Positions 39,810 to 50,962 of a DNA stretch of 64,000 bases are shown piece by piece; position 1 is the stretch's first letter, and each line of letters opens with the position of its first letter. The translations under genes and the position numbers were made by a program. The notes under the pieces are model-generated. The model worked only from the letters and a program-made list of their open reading frames with translations, was not told where the DNA came from and searched no databases. This stretch comes from Rhodospirillaceae bacterium. Its GTDB lineage: Bacteria; Pseudomonadota; Alphaproteobacteria; Rhodospirillales; Rhodospirillaceae. The stretch spans positions 248,001 through 312,000 of the forward strand of contig JAQWRV010000006.1 of the NCBI GenBank assembly GCA_029243545.1, in the 5' to 3' direction.

Positions 39810-40424
39810 ATGACTAATCGTATTTCGTCGAAATACAAAATCGACCGCCGTCTCGGCGTGAACCTTTGGGGACGGCCAAAAAGCCCCATAAATAAACGCG
39901 ATTACGGCCCTGGCCAGCATGGTCAGCGCCGGCGCAAGCCGTCTGATTACGGCATTCAGCTCATGGCCAAGCAAAAGCTTAAGGGCTATTACGGCAATAT
40001 CTCGGAAAAGCAGTTCCGGCGCTACTACAAGGAAGCCGTTCGGCGCACAGGCGACACCTCGGAAAACCTCATTGGAATTCTTGAGTGCCGCTTGGATGCT
40101 CTGGTCTACCGCATGAAGTTTGTGCCGACCGTGTTCTCCGCCCGCCAATTCGTCAGCCACGGCCATGTGAAGGTCAACGGCGTCAAGGTGACAATCCCAT
40201 CCTATATGGTGAAGATCGGCGATAAGATCGAACTGCGCGATAAAGCCAAGACCATGGGTCTGGTGCTGGATGCCATGGAATCGGTGGAACGCGATATTCC
40301 AGATTACGTGGACGTGGATCACAACATTGGCAAAGGCAGCATGACCCGTGTGCCTTCGCTGGCCGACGTGCCTTACCCGGTACAAATGGAACCTAATCTG
40401 GTGGTAGAATATTACTCGCGTTAG
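39810..40424 (+). CDS. rpsD: 30S ribosomal protein S4
   Basis: The 204-residue primary rRNA-binding protein of the small subunit. It starts '[26 protein letters not shown]', has the C-minus layout of alphaproteobacterial S4 ('[16 protein letters not shown]'), and the S4 RNA-binding domain '[33 protein letters not shown]' lies around residues 92-125. It ends in TAG, showing that TAG works as a stop in an essential gene here. It stands alone with a strong terminator downstream. Confidence 0.97.
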
Positions 40425-40739: not shown

Positions 40740-41501
40740 ATGAATTCACAGTCACCCGATACCGCTGCTCTTTTCGGCGATCCGACGTCTATGACCGTCG
40801 AGTCAGGGGCAGGAAACATCACCGTTTTGTTCCCCGACGTGGGCAATACGCGCAGGCATGTCCAACGCATACTCACGGGATTGGATTATAGCGTTCTGCC
40901 CATAGAGGGGTACACCGCGGACACCATCGTTGATATCGGCGCCAACATCGGTGGGTTTGCGCTTTACATGAATCAGCAGTTTCCCGACGCCCGGTGCGTT
41001 TGCTTTGAGCCATCACCCGGCGCGTTCAACTACTTGGCTGAGAACACCAAAGACATTCCTAATATTACGGCCCACCACTTGGGGCTGTTCTCACACGATT
41101 CCGAGATGACCTTGTTCGACGGTGCGTCACAGGGGCTGCAAAGTTCTCTCTATGCCAGCGCTGAAACCTCACAGTCCGGCACCACCGTGACCCTGCGCCA
41201 CGCCGAGCGGGCTCTGGAAGAATTCGGTCCCAAGCACATATCCATTCTAAAAGTCGATACGGAAGGCGCAGAAATGCCCATTCTGTCGACCCTGGCCATT
41301 CGGCTTGGCGATGTTGATCAGATTTATCTTGAATATCATTCGGAACAAGACCGCCGCGAGATCGATACGCTTTTAGTTGAGACACATGTGCTGGCCGGCG
41401 CTTCGGCCAAGGCGGTCCATCGTGGCACCAACCACTACCTCAACAAAGCGTTGTTAGAGGCGTATCCGGATCTCAATGTCTTGAAGATTGCACGGACGTA
41501 G
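40740..41501 (+). CDS. FkbM family methyltransferase
   Basis: A 253-residue SAM-dependent methyltransferase. Motif I reads 'TIVDIGANIGGFALYMNQ' near residue 62, followed by the acidic 'VCFEPSPGAFNYL' near 87, and the FkbM signature 'ISILKVDTEGAEMPIL' near 170 with 'IYLEYHSEQD' after it. The family O-methylates sugars, polyketides or lipids, so the substrate here is open. The upstream 'GYTADTIVDIGA' region and the length are normal. It precedes the Tat-export cluster by 134 bases but has no export signal, so it may belong to a separate unit. Confidence 0.85.
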   Translation: MNSQSPDTAALFGDPTSMTVESGAGNITVLFPDVGNTRRHVQRILTGLDYSVLPIEGYTADTIVDIGANIGGFALYMNQQFPDARCVCFEPSPGAFNYLAENTKDIPNITAHHLGLFSHDSEMTLFDGASQGLQSSLYASAETSQSGTTVTLRHAERALEEFGPKHISILKVDTEGAEMPILSTLAIRLGDVDQIYLEYHSEQDRREIDTLLVETHVLAGASAKAVHRGTNHYLNKALLEAYPDLNVLKIART

Positions 41502-41635: not shown

Positions 41636-43942
41636 ATGAAATTGTCCCGCCGCAGCATGATTGTCTCAGGAATCGCAGCCGGGGGTGGCCTGGCCGTCGC
41701 CTATGGCCTTGAAACCCTTAAGGATGGCGAGTCCCGGCCCAAATTCGCGGCGTCGACGCCAGAATCCTTCGTTCTCCACGCCTATGTGAAAATCCGCCCC
41801 GACGGTAAAATCAGCGTCGCCGTGCCCCAGGCCGAGCTCGGGCAGGGGGTCACCACCGCAATTCCCATGATGGCGGCTGAAGAGCTGGATGCCGACTGGA
41901 ATGACGTCAGCTATGAACTGGCGCCGTTGGACAAAGATTACGGCTCCTACGCCATCGCCGAGGCGGTGCCGATCATTTTTATGGAGCCCGGCACCACGGC
42001 CGATCTCACCCGCGCCGCGCTCTACAAAATTACGCCGCTCATCGGCATGACCATGACCGGCGGGTCTTCGACCGTGCTCGGTAACTACACCTATGTGCGC
42101 ACCGCCGGTGCGGCGGCTCGTCAGATGCTGCTTCAGGCAGCGGCGGAGCGCCTTGACGTTCCCCATAGCGAGTTGACCACGTCCAAAAGTAAAGTCATCC
42201 ACGCCGCCTCTAATCGCACTCTTACTTACGGCGAGCTTGCTGAAGCCGCTGCTGCGTTTGAACCCGGCGACGGTGAAAACTGGAAAGATGAGGCTGATTT
42301 CTCCATCCTTGGTTATCCACTCACTCGTTTGGATACGCCGGAGAAAGTCGACGGCTCGGCCACGTATGGGATTGATGTGCAATTGCCCGGCATGAAGTTC
42401 GCCGCCATTCGTCACAGCCCCGCGTTCGGTGGCACCCTCAAATCCTACGATGCCGACAGGGCCATGGCCCATAAAGGTGTTATCGCTGTGGTGCCGGTGC
42501 AAGATAACGCCGTCGCCGTGGTTGCCGGTAATACGTGGACGGCGCAGAAGGCCCTCAACGACATGCCGGTGGAGTGGACCCCGCCTGAAGGTGAACTCTT
42601 CAGCACCGGCAAGGCCCTCAAAGAATACGCCTCGCTGTTTGATGCCCAAGGCGCCAACGTGCTCACGGAAGACGAAGCCTTCGCCGCAGCCTGGGAAACC
42701 AATACCACCACCATCGAAGCGGTCTACGAAACGCCCTATCTCGCCCACGTCTGTATGGAACCCATGGGCGCCACGGCGCTTTATGAAGGGTCGACCACCG
42801 ACGATCCCGAAGATGGGTCCATCACCGTATGGTCGCCGAGCCAGTCCATGAGCCAGACCGCCACCCAGGCGCAGCGCATCACCGGCGTCAAAAAAGAGAA
42901 CGTTGACGTGCACGCCACCCTCATGGGCGGTGGATTTGGCCGCCGTGCCGATATGGATTTCGTCCGCCAGGTGTCCGATATCGCCCGGCAAATGCCTGGC
43001 ACGCCTATTAAGCTCACCTGGAGCCGTGAAGAAGACGTCCAGCAGGATACTTATCGTCCGGCCACAGCAGCGCGTTTCCGCGCCGGGCTTGACGCCGACG
43101 GCACTATGACGGCGCTCGATTTTGTCATCGTCGGTAAGCCGGTGGGTGCCGACTTCAACACCCGCAACGGTAGCTTTGTGCCCATGGCACCGGAAAATGA
43201 CGTCAGCATGGTCTCGCCCATGAGCAATTCACCCTATGCTTTTCCTGCTGTGCGCTTAGCCCTCAACGCGCAGAGCAATCCGGTGCCCAACGGCAACTGG
43301 CGCAGTGTGTCCATGTCCCACAACGCCTTCTATCAGGAAGCCTTTATGAACGAGGTTGCCGAAGCGGCGGGGAAAGATCCCATCGTTTTCCGCCGCGAGC
43401 TATTGAGACACAAACCCGAGTTCGTGGCCGTACTGGACACGTTGGAAGAAAAGAGTGACTGGCATACCCCGCTCGCGCCAGGGCCCGACGGCTCAAAACG
43501 GGGCCGCGGTGTGGCTTTCCTCGAGGCATTCGCGTCCATCGTCGGTCAGGTTGTCGAGGTAACTGTGGCCGCTAACGGTGACCTCACCATTGACCGCGTA
43601 GTCAGTGTGGTTGACCCGCATACCATTGTTAATCCGAACATTGTCGAAGCGCAGGTTGAAGGCGCGGTCATCGACGGCCTCTCCACTGCGCTCTACGGCC
43701 AGATCGATGTGGAAGACGGCCGAGTGCAGCAATCCAATTTCGACAGCTACCGCATGATGAAAATGGTTGAAGCGCCGCCACTGATCGAAACCCATGTTAT
43801 GCCCCAGGGCGGCCATCCCGGCGGCATGGGTGAGGTCGGTCTGCCCGGCGTGGCCCCGGCTCTGACTGCTGCGATCTATAACGCCACCGGCCAGCGTATC
43901 CGCCAATTGCCGATCGCCATTTCCGGCCAGATTTCGGTTTAG
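41636..43942 (+). CDS. Tat-exported molybdenum hydroxylase large subunit (IorB/xanthine dehydrogenase family)
   Basis: The 768-residue protein starts at ATG 41636 after AGGAA. Its N-terminus 'KLSRRSMIVSGIAAGGGLAVAYG' is a twin-arginine signal, so it should be exported folded with its cofactor. The body matches the isoquinoline 1-oxidoreductase beta-type subunit that binds molybdopterin: 'PQAELGQGVTTAIPMMAAEELDADW', 'ATLMGGGFGRRADMDF' near residue 428, and the catalytic Glu region 'GMGEVGLPGVAPAL' near 730. Such subunits hydroxylate N-heterocycles or oxidise aldehydes and need a small 2Fe-2S partner. None is adjacent on either side, so electron transfer must come from elsewhere. Coding sequence here is more GC-rich than in neighbouring regions. 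Confidence 0.88.
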   Translation: MKLSRRSMIVSGIAAGGGLAVAYGLETLKDGESRPKFAASTPESFVLHAYVKIRPDGKISVAVPQAELGQGVTTAIPMMAAEELDADWNDVSYELAPLDKDYGSYAIAEAVPIIFMEPGTTADLTRAALYKITPLIGMTMTGGSSTVLGNYTYVRTAGAAARQMLLQAAAERLDVPHSELTTSKSKVIHAASNRTLTYGELAEAAAAFEPGDGENWKDEADFSILGYPLTRLDTPEKVDGSATYGIDVQLPGMKFAAIRHSPAFGGTLKSYDADRAMAHKGVIAVVPVQDNAVAVVAGNTWTAQKALNDMPVEWTPPEGELFSTGKALKEYASLFDAQGANVLTEDEAFAAAWETNTTTIEAVYETPYLAHVCMEPMGATALYEGSTTDDPEDGSITVWSPSQSMSQTATQAQRITGVKKENVDVHATLMGGGFGRRADMDFVRQVSDIARQMPGTPIKLTWSREEDVQQDTYRPATAARFRAGLDADGTMTALDFVIVGKPVGADFNTRNGSFVPMAPENDVSMVSPMSNSPYAFPAVRLALNAQSNPVPNGNWRSVSMSHNAFYQEAFMNEVAEAAGKDPIVFRRELLRHKPEFVAVLDTLEEKSDWHTPLAPGPDGSKRGRGVAFLEAFASIVGQVVEVTVAANGDLTIDRVVSVVDPHTIVNPNIVEAQVEGAVIDGLSTALYGQIDVEDGRVQQSNFDSYRMMKMVEAPPLIETHVMPQGGHPGGMGEVGLPGVAPALTAAIYNATGQRIRQLPIAISGQISV

Positions 43943-44133
43943 AAACTCCTATTGTCACCATCGTATTTATTGCCAGGGTTCAGGGTATTCTGCACAGCTT
44001 ATGATGCTAGCTCTGGGTCTTCGGAATGAGTCCAAAGATGACTAACTTATAAAGAACCCTCTTACTCCAGTGACTGACGCTGGGGTGAGGCGCTAATATC
44101 ATCCGTGGTTCACTGAGTTGAAGGGATGCATTC

Positions 44134-45147
44134 ATGCAACGTCGGCACCTCATAAAAGGCATTTCGGCACTGGCAGCAGCGGGCGCCGCTGGGCTGTCTC
44201 GCAGCGCTCAAGCGCAAACTCAGGAAACTGAGTCCGTCGCGTGCTATCCCGCGGCCGTCATGCGCATCCCGGTCCTGGTGCCGCTTAGCGCCGATGCCTT
44301 GGAAGATGTGCGCCGGCGCAATGCCGAAGCCATGGTCGACGCCATTGAAAACATGATGCGGGCGGAGACCGTGAAACCCCGCATCGTTGTCTTTCCAGTG
44401 CTTCAATACACCTCGGCGCGCCGCGCCGTGTCGGGGGTACCCATGACCGCCGTTGCCGTTGATCTGGTGACGGAACATTTGGATCAGGGCATTTTCGCAC
44501 CGGTGATAGAGGCCTGCCGCCGTCACAACTGTTATGTGGCCACCAGCACCCAGGAAAAGGTGGCCAAACTTCCCGGCACCTATTTCCACACCGGTTTTAT
44601 TATGGGGCCCGAAGGGCTGGTTCTGCGTTCGCCCAAAGCCCAGGCCCAAAGTGCGCCGTCGGTCAGTTATCTGCGCGACATCAAAGACGATTACCTCAAG
44701 GCGTTTGGTCCTGACTCAATCATGCCGGTGGTGAAAACCCCGCTGGGCACCCTTGCCTGCTTCGTCGAAGGGGAAGCGGAAGTGCTGGAGGCCTCGCGGT
44801 TGCTGGCCTCCAAAGGGGCGGAAGTCATTTTGCACACCAGTATGGAGAGCGATGAAATTCCGTGGCAGGCGCTTAAGCAGGCCATCGGATTTCAAACCCA
44901 CGTGTATCTGCTGACCGGGGCGACGTCGCGCATCATCATGGCCGACGATTCTGCCGGGGAATGGATGGGTGGCGCCTCCACCATCGTCAGGCCGGACGGG
45001 GGCATTCTCGCATCTATCGGCGGACGCGACGAAGGCTACGCCGTGGCCGACGTTAATCTCGCCGCTATCGTTGAAGCCAAAAAGAAATTCGCCCGCAACA
45101 CAGTCCCAGCCTGGCACCTCTACTCCGACCTTTACACGGAAAAGTAA
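44134..45147 (+). CDS. Tat-exported nitrilase-fold protein, probable catalytic Glu missing
   Basis: A 337-residue protein with a twin-arginine signal ('QRRHLIKGISALAAAGAAGLSRSAQAQ'). The remainder follows the carbon-nitrogen hydrolase fold: 'RIVVFPVLQY' near residue 84-92, 'RSPKAQAQ' (candidate Lys168) and 'GTLACFVEGEAEVLEASRLLASKGAEVIL', with Cys209 at the nucleophile position. In active nitrilases the first strand ends P-E with the general base Glu. Here it reads P-V. Cys and a Lys are present, so the enzyme may be inactive, use another base or have a new reaction. It is 191 bases after the molybdenum hydroxylase gene and 218 before the amidohydrolase. Confidence 0.7.
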   Translation: MQRRHLIKGISALAAAGAAGLSRSAQAQTQETESVACYPAAVMRIPVLVPLSADALEDVRRRNAEAMVDAIENMMRAETVKPRIVVFPVLQYTSARRAVSGVPMTAVAVDLVTEHLDQGIFAPVIEACRRHNCYVATSTQEKVAKLPGTYFHTGFIMGPEGLVLRSPKAQAQSAPSVSYLRDIKDDYLKAFGPDSIMPVVKTPLGTLACFVEGEAEVLEASRLLASKGAEVILHTSMESDEIPWQALKQAIGFQTHVYLLTGATSRIIMADDSAGEWMGGASTIVRPDGGILASIGGRDEGYAVADVNLAAIVEAKKKFARNTVPAWHLYSDLYTEK

Positions 45148-45365
45148 CGTCACCCGCGGACGTGTTCCGGGGGCAGGACAGTTTCAAACAATAGGGGTTG
45201 TTTCCTGAAAAACTGGGGGTCAGAAAGTTAATCCGTTGAAAACAAACAAAAGCCGTTCTGTCGCACGCCTTGTATCTATTGTGGCGCCGCCTCTGGCGAG
45301 TCCGGGCATCCAGGGTAGTATGAAAATCTACTAGACTGCGGGTAGGAACGAAAAAGGGGACCGCT

Positions 45366-47024
45366 ATGACAACGCATAACCAAGATCATTCAGGACATAA
45401 TCATTCAGGGCCCAATCATTCAGGGCCCAATCATTCAGAACATGTTCTATCCGGCTACGAGGGATCCTGCTTTATTTGTGCAGGAACGGAAGGGGCCGTG
45501 CCTGAACCTTCAGCGTCGCGGCGCGGCTTCATGCAGGCGGCGGCGCTGTCAGCGGTTGCGGCAACCGCCCCTCTCAGCAAAGCCAAAGCACAAATGCCCC
45601 GGCTGCCGTTTGGTCCTGAAGACGACTTCATCATCGATGCTGGCTGGGTGCTGATTGAAACAGACGGCGAGCTTGATCTCCTGCGCGACGGACATGTGCT
45701 GGTGCGCGGCGGGGTCATCGAAGATGTGCGCGCCGAGCCTTTCGCCGACAACCTGCCGAATCTCGCACTGCCCTATGACCTGCTGGCGCCGGGGTTCATT
45801 TCCGGGCACACCCATTGCTGCTCGGCCACACCCACACGGGGCATCATAGAAGGGCCACGTTCCTATCAGCGTCCCCTCGAAATTGTCGAGATGCTGTCCG
45901 ACGATGAGATTGATGCACTGACCGCGCTGAACCTTGCCGAGCTGTTGCGCTCCGGCAGCACCACCCATGTAGAAATGAGCCTCACACTGCGTCAGGCCGA
46001 AAGCTACGTGCGCCTGGCCGAGCGCTGGGGCGTGCGCGGATTCCCGGGTTCGATGATTCCCAACACGGAGCGTCTGTTTGACATCTGGTTTAGGCCCAAC
46101 GATCAAGTGCTATTCGATGCGGAAGAAGATACCCTCAGGGAAGTCGCCGCTAATCTTGCCTTTGGCAAGAAGCATATGGGCAAGGGTGACGGCCGCATTC
46201 TGCCCATGATGTCACCCCATGCCTGCGATACCCACACACCCGCGACCATGCAGGCCACGGCCGATGCCGCCAAAGAGCTCGGCACTGGTTTGCACATTCA
46301 TTTGTCGCAAGGATCGCGTGAGACGGAAGAGGTGAAACGCCTCTGGGGTATGTCCCCTGCTCAGTGGGTCGAGAGTTTCGGCTTCTTTGCCAACGGCCCG
46401 GTGTTCGGTGCGCATATGACCGGTCTCGATTGGGAGACCGATCCTGACGTGTTTAATCGCGGCGGCGGAGTTTACGCCCACTGTCCCTCCGGCGGCGGCG
46501 CGGGCAACGGCACCCAGCCTTATCCGGAAGCACTGGCGGCGGGTATGAACGTCAACATCGGCATCGATACGCATTCCAACGATTACCTGGAAGACCTCAA
46601 GCTGGCGGTGATCTACGGCCAAGCGCGCTGGGACCTCAAACGCCGGCTCGACCCTGACGGTGTGCCGGTTCAGCGCCCGACGGTATGGGATGCAGTCGAC
46701 GGCGCCACGCGCGTTGCAGCCAAGGGCCTCCGCCGCGATGATCTCGGCGTCATCAAGCCGGACGCCAAAGCGGATATGATTTCTATAGATGTGTCGGGCA
46801 TGCTGGTGGGGTCAGGGGCGCTGCCGCCCGAACCGCTCAATAATCTGTTATACGCCAACGGCAGGATGGTGCGCACAGCCATGACCGAAGGCCGCCTGCA
46901 AGTGCACGACTTCCGTTTTGTCGCCGACGACGAAGACGCTGTGCTCCGCGCCGGCGGACAGGTCGTTGAAAAAATCTGGGCGCAGTTGGCTGACGAAGGC
47001 TGGTTTACGGAAACGGCCCGGTAA
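45366..47024 (+). CDS. Tat-exported amidohydrolase with His-rich tandem-repeat leader
   Basis: The 552-residue protein has an unusual leader. Residues ~7-26 are four near-identical units of NHSGP or DHSGH type, then 'GSCFICAGTEG' (CxxC), then a twin-arginine signal 'SASRRGFMQAAALSAVAATA' at about residue 43. The amidohydrolase barrel begins near residue 70: 'GFISGHTHCCS' (H-x-H, near residue 143), 'LHIHLSQGSRETEE' (His near 318), 'GAHMTGLDW' (His) and 'IGIDTHSNDY' (Asp). These are the metal-site marks of the cytosine-deaminase and AtzA-like branch, acting on ring C-N or C-halide bonds. It is the third of four exported proteins in this cluster. Substrate unknown. Confidence 0.85.
   Translation: MTTHNQDHSGHNHSGPNHSGPNHSEHVLSGYEGSCFICAGTEGAVPEPSASRRGFMQAAALSAVAATAPLSKAKAQMPRLPFGPEDDFIIDAGWVLIETDGELDLLRDGHVLVRGGVIEDVRAEPFADNLPNLALPYDLLAPGFISGHTHCCSATPTRGIIEGPRSYQRPLEIVEMLSDDEIDALTALNLAELLRSGSTTHVEMSLTLRQAESYVRLAERWGVRGFPGSMIPNTERLFDIWFRPNDQVLFDAEEDTLREVAANLAFGKKHMGKGDGRILPMMSPHACDTHTPATMQATADAAKELGTGLHIHLSQGSRETEEVKRLWGMSPAQWVESFGFFANGPVFGAHMTGLDWETDPDVFNRGGGVYAHCPSGGGAGNGTQPYPEALAAGMNVNIGIDTHSNDYLEDLKLAVIYGQARWDLKRRLDPDGVPVQRPTVWDAVDGATRVAAKGLRRDDLGVIKPDAKADMISIDVSGMLVGSGALPPEPLNNLLYANGRMVRTAMTEGRLQVHDFRFVADDEDAVLRAGGQVVEKIWAQLADEGWFTETAR
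45384..45443 (+). repeat. Four tandem 15-bp units in the amidohydrolase leader
   Basis: Units GATCATTCAGGACAT (45384-45398), AATCATTCAGGGCCC (45399-45413 and 45414-45428, identical) and AATCATTCAGAACAT (45429-45443) encode (D/N)-H-S-G/E-H/P repeats. Copy number could change without shifting the frame. Confidence 0.95.
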
Positions 47025-47049
47025 ACCTCTCGATTGTCTCTGTCAGGCT

Positions 47050-47916
47050 CTAAATCTCAAACGGAATGGGGCGGTCAAACTCACCCCAGCGCGGCTCCAG
47101 CAATTCTGGATACTCGCGTTCCATGCGATCAAGAATCTCACGAGGCATTTCGGAGGGCCCGTTTATTTTCTTGCCGTCCCAAAAGCCGGTCATGTGCCCA
47201 TTGCCCTCAGGCATTTTAATCCAAGCAGGGTATTCAAAGGCATAATGCCCGCAAAATTTAACAGGAAGGGACGTGATCTCTTCATTATCGAAGAGGTCCT
47301 TTTCCACCCATTGGCATGAGTTTTCGATGTGTGTTGCCGGCCAGTCCGGCGGTGCGCTGCGCACGCTGTCGAGTTTGATCAAATTGTCTTCTCTGCGAAA
47401 CTGGCGGTAGACATCCTGTGGTGTGCCATCCCCATTAAGGTTACGAAACCCAACCGGCCCGGCAATGGTACCCGGGTCATGCAGCAGCAGTGAGACCGGT
47501 GTTTCCACTTGTTCACCTGTAATGGGATTCATAATCGTATCTGTGAATGCGTTTGTCTTGAGGTCACGCGGGAATGAAATGTTGTGGGCATGAATGCGGT
47601 AGTTGTTATTACCGAGGTGGCGGAAATAACTGTATTCGATGCCTTCATAGCGCATCACCGGCTCAGGTCGGCGGCCACCGGGAATGACAAAGAGCATCCA
47701 ATTGTACCAGGTCAGTGCTGTGCCCTGAGTTTCCGGGAGGTCGCGTTCAATGCGCATGTGCGCACGGAATTCTTCTACTGGATCATCGTAATATAGGAAT
47801 TCAGAGACGGTCTGGCCGACCGGAGGGTTTGGCGACTGGGCCTGCGCCGCTTTGCTACTCAGCAATGAGCCCGTCGCTCCGGCCGCCGTAGATACAAAGG
47901 TCCGTCGAGTAACCAT
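47050..47916 (-). CDS. Tat-exported DUF1838 family protein
   Basis: A 288-residue protein with a twin-arginine signal 'MVTRRTFVSTAAGATGSLLSSKAAQAQ'. The mature part starts 'DPVEEFRAHMRIERDL' and includes 'RYEGIEYSYFRHLGNNNYRIHAHNISFPRD' and 'DTIMNPITGEQVETP', the pattern I associate with DUF1838. The family has no known biochemical role. It is convergent with the amidohydrolase gene (25 bases apart), the fourth exported protein in a row, and divergent from nothing. The strand switch means it is not in the same operon. Confidence 0.7.
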   Translation of the reverse strand: MVTRRTFVSTAAGATGSLLSSKAAQAQSPNPPVGQTVSEFLYYDDPVEEFRAHMRIERDLPETQGTALTWYNWMLFVIPGGRRPEPVMRYEGIEYSYFRHLGNNNYRIHAHNISFPRDLKTNAFTDTIMNPITGEQVETPVSLLLHDPGTIAGPVGFRNLNGDGTPQDVYRQFRREDNLIKLDSVRSAPPDWPATHIENSCQWVEKDLFDNEEITSLPVKFCGHYAFEYPAWIKMPEGNGHMTGFWDGKKINGPSEMPREILDRMEREYPELLEPRWGEFDRPIPFEI

Positions 47917-48042: not shown

Positions 48043-48375
48043 CTACGCCGTCGCGACTTCTTTGTCTTTGAACAGGTCTTCGAGCTCACCACTCTCGGCC
48101 ATTTCTCGCACGATGTCGCAGCCGCCGACGAATTCGCCCTTCACATAAAGTTGGGGAACGGTTGGCCAGTTGCTGAATTCTTTGACGCCTTGGCGCACGG
48201 TGTCGTCCGCCAGCACATCAACCCCTTTGAACTTAACCTCAAGCTGGCTGAGAATTTGCACCACAGCGGCAGAGAAGCCGCACTGGGGAAACATCGGTGA
48301 GCCCTTCATGAACAGCACAACATCGTTGGCTTCCACGTCGGCCTTGATTTGAGTAATAGCAGGATTGTCGGTCAT
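48043..48375 (-). CDS. grxD: Monothiol glutaredoxin
   Basis: A 110-residue glutaredoxin with the monothiol active site '[15 protein letters not shown]' (CGFS near residue 33) and the glutathione-binding '[23 protein letters not shown]'. CGFS glutaredoxins carry 2Fe-2S clusters with BolA proteins, and the bolA gene lies just upstream on the same strand, 98 bases away. The pair sits at the end of the purine block, a common alphaproteobacterial arrangement. Confidence 0.95.
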
Positions 48376-48751: not shown

Positions 48752-50962
48752 CTAAGCAGCCATATAGTCAGGAAACCAGCCCTCATGAAAATCACGTAGG
48801 GTTGAAAGGCCGATCGAAGCATCGCCAGTGAATGAGATACTATCTCCGCCCGTAGTGCCAATCTGACGAACTAAAATGCCCTCATTCTCAAAAGTGCTTG
48901 TGACTGTCGTTAATCGGTCCGCAATACAGGTGATGATGTAGCGGCCTTGGTCTTCACCAAACAACCAGGGTGCTGACACGTCAGCGCCAATATCAATCGT
49001 CACACCAATATCACCAGAAAGCGCCATTTCAGTGAGTGCAATCGCAACACCACCATCAGACACATCGTGGCAGGTGTCGATATCTCCATTCTGAATTAGG
49101 CCACGCACAGCATCGCCGACTTTGCGTTCTTGGAAGAGATCTACCGGCGGAGGCGCACCCATTTCGACGCCATGCAATTCACGCAGGTATAAGGACTGCC
49201 CGAGCCAGCCGCCAGAGATGTCGTCTGGGCCGCCAACCAGTAGAACCGCATCCCCGTCACCCTTGAAGGCTACCGTGGCTGTGTTGTCGAGAGAGTCGAT
49301 GATGCCGATTGCGCCGATGGTTGGTGTCGGCAAGATCGGTTGGCCGTCGGTTTCGTTGTAAAGCGAGACGTTGCCTGAGACGACGGGTGTATCTAGCGCG
49401 GTACAGGCTGCGCCGATGCCTTTCACCGCCTCCACCAGTTGACCCATGATCGGTGGCTTTTCAGGGTTACCGAAATTGAGATTATCGGTTACCGCAAGAG
49501 GGCGTGCGCCGGTAGCTGTCAGATTGCGGAAGGTCTCAGCAACCGCCTGCTTGCCGCCCTCAAACGGATCGGCTTTGACATAGCGCGGCGTGCAGTCAGA
49601 CGTGATCGCCAAACCTCTCTCAGAGCCATGAATACGCACCACGGCCGCGTCGCCGCCTGGGCGCTGCACCGTGTCGCCCATGACCATGTGGTCATACTGC
49701 TCCCACACCCAACGGCGGCTGGCCAAATCCGGTGCCCCGATGAGTTTCTTGAGGGACTCTGTCCAATCGCCGTGTTTGACGCTGTCAGAGGGAACAACCT
49801 CAGCCTTCTCTGTCGGCACCCAGGGACGGTCGTATTCCGGCGAGGCTTCTGCCAGCGGATCGATCGGCATGTCGGCGACGGATGCGCCGCCTTTCTTCAG
49901 CACCATGCGGCCTGTGTCGGTCACGTGACCGACGATCGCAAAGTCTAGTTCCCATTTCTCGAAGATCGCTTGGGCGATGTGTTCCTTGCCCGGCTGCAGT
50001 ACCATCAGCATCCGCTCTTGGCTTTCCGACAGCATGATTTCGTAGGGCGTCATGCCTTCTTCACGAATGGGTACAGCGTCGAGATCAAGCTCAATGCCGG
50101 TGCCGCCTTTGGAGCACATCTCGAAGGATGAGCAGGTGAGACCGGCGGCGCCCATATCCTGAATTGCGACAATGGTGTCGGTTGCCATGAGTTCTAGACA
50201 AGCTTCAATCAGAAGCTTTTCCGTGAACGGGTCACCAACCTGAACGGTGGGGCGCTTTTCCTCTGTATCTTCGTCAAACTCTGCCGAGGCCATGGTCGCG
50301 CCGTGAATGCCGTCGCGGCCTGTCTTGGAGCCCACATAGATCACCGGATTGCCTGGGCCAGACGCTGCGGAATAGAAAATCCGGTTTTGATCGGCCAGTC
50401 CAACCGTCATCGCATTGACTAAAATGTTGCCGTTGTAGGCGGGGTCAAAATTAACCTCGCCACCGACGGTCGGCACGCCGACGCAGTTGCCGTAGCTGCC
50501 GATTCCACCGACGACGCCAGCCACGAGATGCTTAGTCTTGGGATGGTCAATAGCGCCGAAGCGCAGCGCATTCAGATTCGCCACCGGCCGCGCGCCCATC
50601 GTGAATACATCGCGGAGGATGCCGCCAACGCCCGTCGCGGCCCCCTGGAAGGGTTCGATGAAAGAGGGGTGGTTGTGGCTTTCCATCTTGAAGATGGCAG
50701 CCAGGCCGTAGCCAATATCGACCACGCCGGCGTTCTCGCCCGGGCCGCATATCACCCACGGCGCTTCCGTCGGGAGGGTTTTGAGCCACTTCTTTGAGGA
50801 TTTGTAAGAACAGTGCTCCGACCACATCACCGAGAAGATACCTAGTTCGACCATGTTGGGTTCACGGCCGCCCAGGATATCCAAGGCAAGCTGATACTCG
50901 TCTTCGGTTAATCCGTGAGAGGCAATGTCGTCTGCAGTAATTGAAGCGTTCTCAATAGTCAC
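48752..50962 (-). CDS. purL: Phosphoribosylformylglycinamidine synthase, large subunit
   Basis: The 736-residue small-type PurL makes FGAM from FGAR, ATP and ammonia delivered by PurQ, with PurS bridging. '[24 protein letters not shown]' near residue 40, '[34 protein letters not shown]' near 92 and '[14 protein letters not shown]' are family motifs of the ATP/FGAR site. The stop of purQ and the start of purL overlap by 4 bases (50959-50962), typical of coupled translation. The gene follows the order purC-purS-purQ-purL. Confidence 0.97.

Follow-up and report, generated by a model that had tools for sequence, protein, structure and literature searches.

The closest described relatives of the genes analyzed here belong to four groups: the large subunits of IorAB-type and aldehyde dehydrogenase-type molybdenum hydroxylases, the nitrilase superfamily, the ATZ/TRZ-like amidohydrolases and the family DUF1838 (PF08894). 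In one report, conversion of the terminal aldehyde in oligo-isoprenoids is attributed to oxiAB, from genome prediction (PMC8538451), and in another source DUF1838 is named in a table row for ArtU of the aurantimycin cluster. In a draft genome of a Rhodospirillaceae bacterium (G000, 3.48 Mb), members of all four groups lie side by side, each with a twin-arginine (Tat) signal. The genes are found in a 64,000-nt stretch of contig JAQWRV010000006.1 (C23 below; forward strand, positions 248,001 to 312,000), termed here the window and numbered from its first letter. A first-pass annotation, made from the letters, had read the four genes, which we call MO, NIT, AH and DUF, as a candidate for an undescribed periplasmic pathway. 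We favor a different account and consider it reasonably probable: the genes occupy a variable site at which genes for Tat-type proteins accrete, with MO and AH as a resident pair, NIT and DUF as newcomers, and an iron-sulfur partner for MO encoded in trans.

41636..43942, plus strand: MO, molybdenum hydroxylase large subunit of the IorB/aldehyde-dehydrogenase type, Tat-signalled (768 residues; Pfam MoCoBD_1 and MoCoBD_2)
44134..45147, plus strand: NIT, nitrilase-fold protein, Tat-signalled (337 residues; Pfam CN_hydrolase)
45366..47024, plus strand: AH, ATZ/TRZ-like amidohydrolase, Tat-signalled (552 residues; Pfam Amidohydro_1)
45366..45593, plus strand: signal region of AH, with a His-rich leader, G-x-C-x-x-C (C35, C38), the Tat pair R52-R53 and a hydrophobic stretch (alignment A1)
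47050..47916, minus strand: DUF, divergent DUF1838 protein, Tat-signalled (288 residues; Pfam DUF1838)

We searched each of the four proteins in 61 genomes (its own plus 60 relatives). AH was also searched in 73 genomes of the family, 15 of which gave a match at E 1e-60, and stretches were fetched to view the surrounding interval. Open reading frames (ORFs) are longest frames, rpsD and grxD of the relatives' intervals were placed by tblastn, and draft contigs limit all neighborhood comparisons. With the window's own genome counted, close relatives of MO (at least 57% identity) occur in 9 genomes, of NIT (at least 55%) in 8, of AH (at least 57%) in 7 and of the window-type DUF (at least 74%) in 4. 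In the relatives, rpsD on one side and grxD-purL-purQ-purC on the other delimit the interval, whose content varies. In the window it holds MO, NIT, AH and DUF consecutively, plus a methyltransferase gene; this gene and the borders are as follows.

39810..40424, plus strand: rpsD, ribosomal protein S4, left border of the variable interval (Pfam Ribosomal_S4 and S4; ortholog in 13/14 genomes searched)
40740..41501, plus strand: FkbM-type methyltransferase without a Tat signal, a gene of the interval (Pfam Methyltransf_21)
48043..48375, minus strand: grxD, monothiol-type glutaredoxin, right border (Pfam Glutaredoxin; ortholog in 12/14 genomes searched)
48752-50962: purL, beyond grxD

MO is present in all seven genomes of the sister genus g2. 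In five of them (G092, G093, G094, G095 and G096), AH lies on the contig of MO, beside grxD, and for three of the five (G092, G094 and G095) the fetched stretch also includes rpsD. The AH of G096 (L159, G096:C25:3958-5565) has five in-frame stops over its matched part (4 TGA, 1 TAA) and is either in decay or misassembled. Of the two other g2 genomes, G023 has MO next to rpsD at one contig end and AH next to grxD at the end of another contig, an arrangement that fits linkage without proving it, and G001 has MO on the grxD contig and no close AH ortholog. The order is rpsD-MO-grxD in genus g23 (G022, G036) and rpsD-AH-grxD in genus g6 (G005, G025, G061, G062). The interval of G024 reads rpsD, methyltransferase, pseudouridine synthase, AH, grxD; those of G002 and G018 contain no Tat-flagged gene. 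Neither NIT nor the window-type DUF was found in any other rpsD-grxD interval examined, and the window's FkbM-type methyltransferase, used as a tblastn query, showed no match in the relatives' intervals. When a further 8 genomes were searched for NIT, close relatives turned up in 7, never on the interval's contig; in G001 and G025, NIT adjoins an SBP_bac_5 gene. Window-type DUF genes elsewhere sit in clusters of Tat-flagged genes. None of the other genomes examined has the set MO+NIT+AH+DUF. As far as these genomes show, MO and AH seem to be residents, which NIT and DUF have joined in the window alone.

Two pairs among the four families recur, so the refuting condition named in the first-pass annotation, no conserved co-occurrence of any two of them, does not apply. 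One is MO+AH, in the g2 interval. The other is AH+DUF1838, at a paralogous locus: a second AH (58% identical) on contig C9 of the window's genome has two DUF1838 genes ∼3-4 kb away, and this arrangement is seen in 7/8 genomes (the window's and 6 of 7 in g2) and not in the fetched stretch of G001. DUF1838 genes were recognized with a profile built from six copies of the window's genome and a second one from alignment A3. Among 59 named loci of AH relatives, the fetched flanks (at least 15 kb for 39 of the 59) contain an MO-like gene in 9, a DUF1838 gene in 6 and a NIT-like gene in 0. The nine with an MO-like gene comprise five g2 genomes, three distant loci labelled Acidobacteria and one locus labelled Gemmatimonadetes (L207). 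In L207, genes for an iorB-type protein, an iorA-type [2Fe-2S] protein and AH follow one another head to tail, and their ends overlap, the starts being unsure; this single case is the best independent hint of an association between MO and AH. In the other Gemmatimonadota-labelled loci, the flanks, several of them short, contain no MO-like gene. The MO-like genes of the Acidobacteria-labelled loci (L192, L196, L220) are 27% identical and on the opposite strand, and were not used as support.

The genes of the g2 intervals, grouped as homology clusters and named by Pfam on examples, bear on what MO and AH might do together. A GNAT protein and an aldehyde dehydrogenase are encoded between the two in 5/5 linked g2 genomes, which lends weight to an alternative at the expense of accretion: MO and AH would be what is left of an exported catabolic cluster devoted to a single substrate, probably acting via an aldehyde or a lactone, and the window's lineage would have lost the other genes. 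A Tat dienelactone hydrolase gene near MO in 7/7 g2 genomes, an MFS transporter gene in 5/7, the iorB-iorA-AH order of L207 and the aldehyde dehydrogenase name of MO's solved relative (below) are in keeping with such a cluster. Yet the other intervening genes vary by genome (kinase, phosphotransferase, methyltransferase, TPR protein), with kinase, phosphotransferase or fasciclin genes in single g2 genomes. Moreover, MO stands alone in g23 and AH in g6, G001 keeps MO without a close AH ortholog, and the AH of G096 is broken. The locus may be the surviving part of a catabolic cluster of the g2 type, a possibility to which we give tentative weight.

The shared Tat signals of the four genes are confirmed, and they are conserved in relatives. 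A regular expression (regex) combined with a hydrophobicity test of the window's ORFs found Tat-like N-termini on MO, NIT, AH and DUF in a row. The same test flags four other ORFs (19177, 32221, 39602 and 57514), which by eye are small shadow ORFs or have a charged stretch after the arginine pair (RR). In family alignments the pair is invariant (MO, 9/9 rows; NIT, 7/7; AH, 9/9; DUF, 11/11). Seven further full-length NIT orthologs also carry it; fragment L236 is too short to show it, and L025, whose start is unsure and which was left out of alignment A2, has none within 60 residues of the start of its long ORF. A stricter regex missed the AH proteins of L122, L123 and L125, in which RR is nonetheless present. 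With the Pfam TAT_signal model, NIT scores 15.5 bits (cut-off 22.7), and MO, AH and DUF are not listed. Thus, the initial description of four adjacent genes with R-R and a hydrophobic stretch stands for all four, except that AH does not begin with R-R: its pair (residues 52-53) follows a His-rich leader and a CxxC motif. From these signals, the four proteins would be exported.

If four Tat genes among 50-60 were placed in random order, all four would be adjacent with p ∼1-2e-4, a figure that treats gene order as random, although related genes cluster. This value argues against pure chance, in which Tat genes are abundant, four happen to be adjacent and none is functionally related to another, and so does the conservation of the MO+AH and AH+DUF1838 neighborhoods. 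Chance gains from the many exported-type paralogs of the lineage (e.g. ∼35 DUF1838 frames) and from an interval that takes up diverse genes, and we judge it rather unlikely.

The layout of the genes was described correctly at the outset: ORF coordinates place MO, NIT and AH on the plus strand, with DUF convergent. Intergenic gaps are 191 bp (MO-NIT), 218 bp (NIT-AH) and 25 bp (AH-DUF). Promoter-like sites (4 versus 4.3 expected) and terminator-like sites (10 versus 8.9 expected) are at chance level. Together with the 191- and 218-bp gaps and the convergent DUF, these counts speak against a single operon of four genes. GC content at third codon positions is lower for DUF (58) than for NIT, MO and AH (67-70) or for the flanking genes (64-68), a difference that counts in favor of the accretion account.

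The predicted structure of NIT matches amidases and nitrilases (Z ∼20 over ∼240 residues, root-mean-square deviation ∼3.3, for 2plq), from a weak model (mean pLDDT 62, and 33-41 around the Cys position). Of the catalytic triad, Lys168 is kept; Val89 occupies the Glu site and Glu212 the Cys site. All eight aligned NIT orthologs have V at the Glu site, versus E in 24/24 other nitrilase-like proteins, and E at the Cys site, versus C in 19/24 others (S in 4, V in 1); two of the 24 are controls from the window itself. With eight more orthologs, the V/K/E combination is found in 16/16, L025 included. These residues were called by sequence alignment, and two MAFFT modes agree. NIT had been taken for a nitrilase acting on amides, a chemistry for which it would have no known catalytic basis because Glu and Cys are missing. 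On these residues, an active amidase is rejected, a classical hydrolase role appears unlikely, and NIT is probably a pseudoenzyme or a protein with an altered active site. Literature searches on nitrilase pseudoenzymes and on Tat-signalled nitrilases or amidohydrolases found nothing. Separately, nitrilase-like paralogs of the lineage (e.g. L026, L032, L036 and L119) show substitutions of their own, with the triad Lys replaced by Arg in 15/24 and Cys by Ser in 4/24.

In AH, H148, H150, H310/H312, H350 and D401 are invariant in 9/9 rows and form the HxH, His, His, Asp pattern expected of metal ligands in the amidohydrolase superfamily. Its solved relatives are 3hpa, 3lnp, 7ww2 and 4f0r. No curated NCBIfam cut-off was reached (best, 142.5 bits versus 416).

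The CxxC motif ahead of the AH twin arginines is well supported by the family's sequences. G-x-C-x-x-C precedes R-R in all nine rows of alignment A1. Within 40 residues before RR, CxxC occurs in 17/17 sequences of the family with a readable RR versus 0/99 other Tat-like ORFs, a contrast that is somewhat flattering, as the control includes many short leaders barely able to hold the motif. Elsewhere it is found in other Alphaproteobacteria (4/5), Binatota/Desulfurellaceae-labelled sequences (7/8), Acidobacteria (1/3) and Actinobacteria (1/2), and in none of the AH sequences from Gemmatimonadota (0/12), Halieaceae (0/3) or an unspecified source (0/1). This amounts to 30/51 AH sequences with RR; from the 60 AH sequences, 3 were left uncounted because they offered no usable anchor and, of the 57 that remained, 6 because they had no RR in the expected span. 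A cruder count gave 26/60. The leader of the window's AH is expanded and His-rich, and g2 leaders have His residues. Conceivably, CxxC in this n-region is a metal- or redox-binding device that couples Tat export to cofactor insertion, as metal loading or quality control, an idea we consider improbable. A literature search on CxxC n-regions found no such Tat signal described.

In a midpoint-rooted tree, the window's AH joins the g2 sequences first and those of Halieaceae next (NOR5-3 and the cultured Chromatocurvus halotolerans; 68-71% identity, with 68% for C. halotolerans). The Halieaceae copies (L168 and L169, position ∼10000) are closer to it than those of g6, g3 and g17, which makes a transfer of AH between classes likely.

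The model of DUF (pLDDT 78) resembles a beta-barrel, with a best Z of 8.9 among mixed barrels (Foldseek, VIA-align), the fold comparison being limited to families listed in that structure search. DUF is thus predicted to be a beta-barrel-like exported protein. Its profile score (21.4 bits) lies below the DUF1838 cut-off (25). The 3.5-Mb genome contains 41 DUF1838 stretches, counted as ∼35 frames, and many copies are Tat-signalled and in tandem (e.g. C3:5068-8579, C9:114553-116910 and C23:123387-124992). DUF1838 is present in 19/73 genomes of the family and 6/23 genera.

Among solved structures, MO matches 8gy3_C best (E 2.4e-79; named 'Large subunit of aldehyde dehydrogenase'), with quinoline, nicotinate and other enzymes much weaker. 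Q403 and E733 are invariant in nine rows, and E733 is presumably the active-site Glu. No NCBIfam equivalog cut-off was reached, and a literature search on the Gluconobacter aldehyde dehydrogenase found nothing.

A gene for the [2Fe-2S] subunit was sought beside MO. No ORF with the iron-sulfur (FeS) motif was found in 14 MO neighborhoods, some of them short; the same pattern does detect the FeS gene in L207. Fer2_2 genes number four in the window's genome, all on contigs other than C23. By their size and order, without profiles, the FeS genes of C21 and C11 have neighbors sized like a large and an FAD subunit, and that of C26 has an FAD-sized neighbor only. The fourth, on C12 (L225, G000:C12:39001-50000), is IorA-like; its neighbors are AAA, CoxE-like, XdhC and MobA-like genes, with no large subunit among them. 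Its ortholog (78-92% identical) is present in 12/13 other MO-carrying genomes, on contigs other than that of MO; the exception, G096 (83% complete), has no relative above 47%. The gene is also found in G061 and G062, where the MO search did not span the whole genome, and in G007 an IorA-like gene directly precedes an MO relative. We infer that MO takes its [2Fe-2S] partner in trans, with the IorA-like gene of C12 as the candidate. As a side observation, an MO paralog with a Tat-type signal lies beside sulfatase-modifying-factor-type genes with D-C-x-x-C near the N-terminus in L226 (G000:C28) and L228 (G005:C7), a naming that comes from Pfam for one L226 gene and was made by eye for the rest.

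An N-heterocycle had been proposed as the substrate, but the top solved structure for MO carries an aldehyde dehydrogenase name and AH falls under every curated NCBIfam cut-off. A single exported pathway in which MO, NIT, AH and DUF hydroxylate and then hydrolytically open a nitrogenous ring in the periplasm, although it can call on Tat-type signals on all four, on the expected catalytic residues kept in MO and AH and on the recurring MO+AH and AH+DUF1838 pairs, is very hard to maintain when the four-gene set appears in no other genome examined, NIT and the window-type DUF are missing from all other intervals examined, NIT relatives lie on other contigs, a NIT-like gene is absent from the fetched flanks of all 59 AH loci, Glu and Cys are missing in 16/16 NIT orthologs, DUF is on the opposite strand, the genes do not look like one operon and nothing is specific to N-heterocycle chemistry.

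In the account that we favor, the interval would be an accretion site in metagenome-assembled genomes, mostly labelled Rhodospirillaceae or Alphaproteobacteria, that are rich in Tat-type proteins. NIT and DUF would be later arrivals from dispersed multi-copy families, and NIT is probably no hydrolase. MO would most likely be a periplasmic molybdenum hydroxylase of the IorB/aldehyde-dehydrogenase type with its [2Fe-2S] subunit supplied in trans, and AH most likely a metal-dependent hydrolase of the periplasm. They may share a compound class, which would be oxidized and then hydrolyzed.

Several observations weigh against this account. The synteny of MO and AH is limited to one sister genus, and shared ancestry without function would explain it too. 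The g2 core (dienelactone hydrolase, MO, GNAT, aldehyde dehydrogenase, AH) is steady, which favors a real cluster over mere accretion. Third-position GC of NIT (69.5) is at its neighbors' level, so composition gives no sign of a recent arrival. In the AH tree, Halieaceae fall between the g1/g2 and g6 versions, and the slot may have been filled repeatedly. As for the partner of MO, the IorA-like gene is also found in G002 (76%) and G018 (73%), both without a close MO, and the window's genome has further FeS genes, that of C26 remaining a possible partner.

These results correct an attractive pathway reading: the adjacency and the shared signals are real, and the neighborhoods and residues point to mixed origins. 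Two leads emerge. One is a conserved CxxC ahead of the Tat motif in one amidohydrolase family, across several phyla. The other is a clade with up to ∼35 copies of the uncharacterized, largely Tat-signalled DUF1838.

Set against known systems, each protein is a partial match. MO resembles the large subunit of IorAB and of aldehyde dehydrogenase (8gy3_C) in its MoCo-binding domains, its aligned N-terminal RR region and its active-site Glu near the C-terminus; unlike IorAB, it has no small [2Fe-2S] subunit gene adjoining it in the 14 neighborhoods, whereas G007 has both genes adjacent. DUF shares with DUF1838 a weak profile match and with its paralogs the Tat architecture, yet falls under the cut-off as a divergent subfamily. 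AH has the family match and metal-ligand pattern of ATZ/TRZ-like amidohydrolases (3hpa, the 8-oxoguanine deaminase 7ww2 and the NCBIfam PRK06151 chlorohydrolase family), but reaches no named-enzyme cut-off and has a Tat signal preceded by CxxC. NIT has the fold and triad Lys of the nitrilase superfamily (aliphatic amidase 2plq, formamidase 2dyu), and differs from it in Glu to Val, Cys to Glu and the Tat signal.

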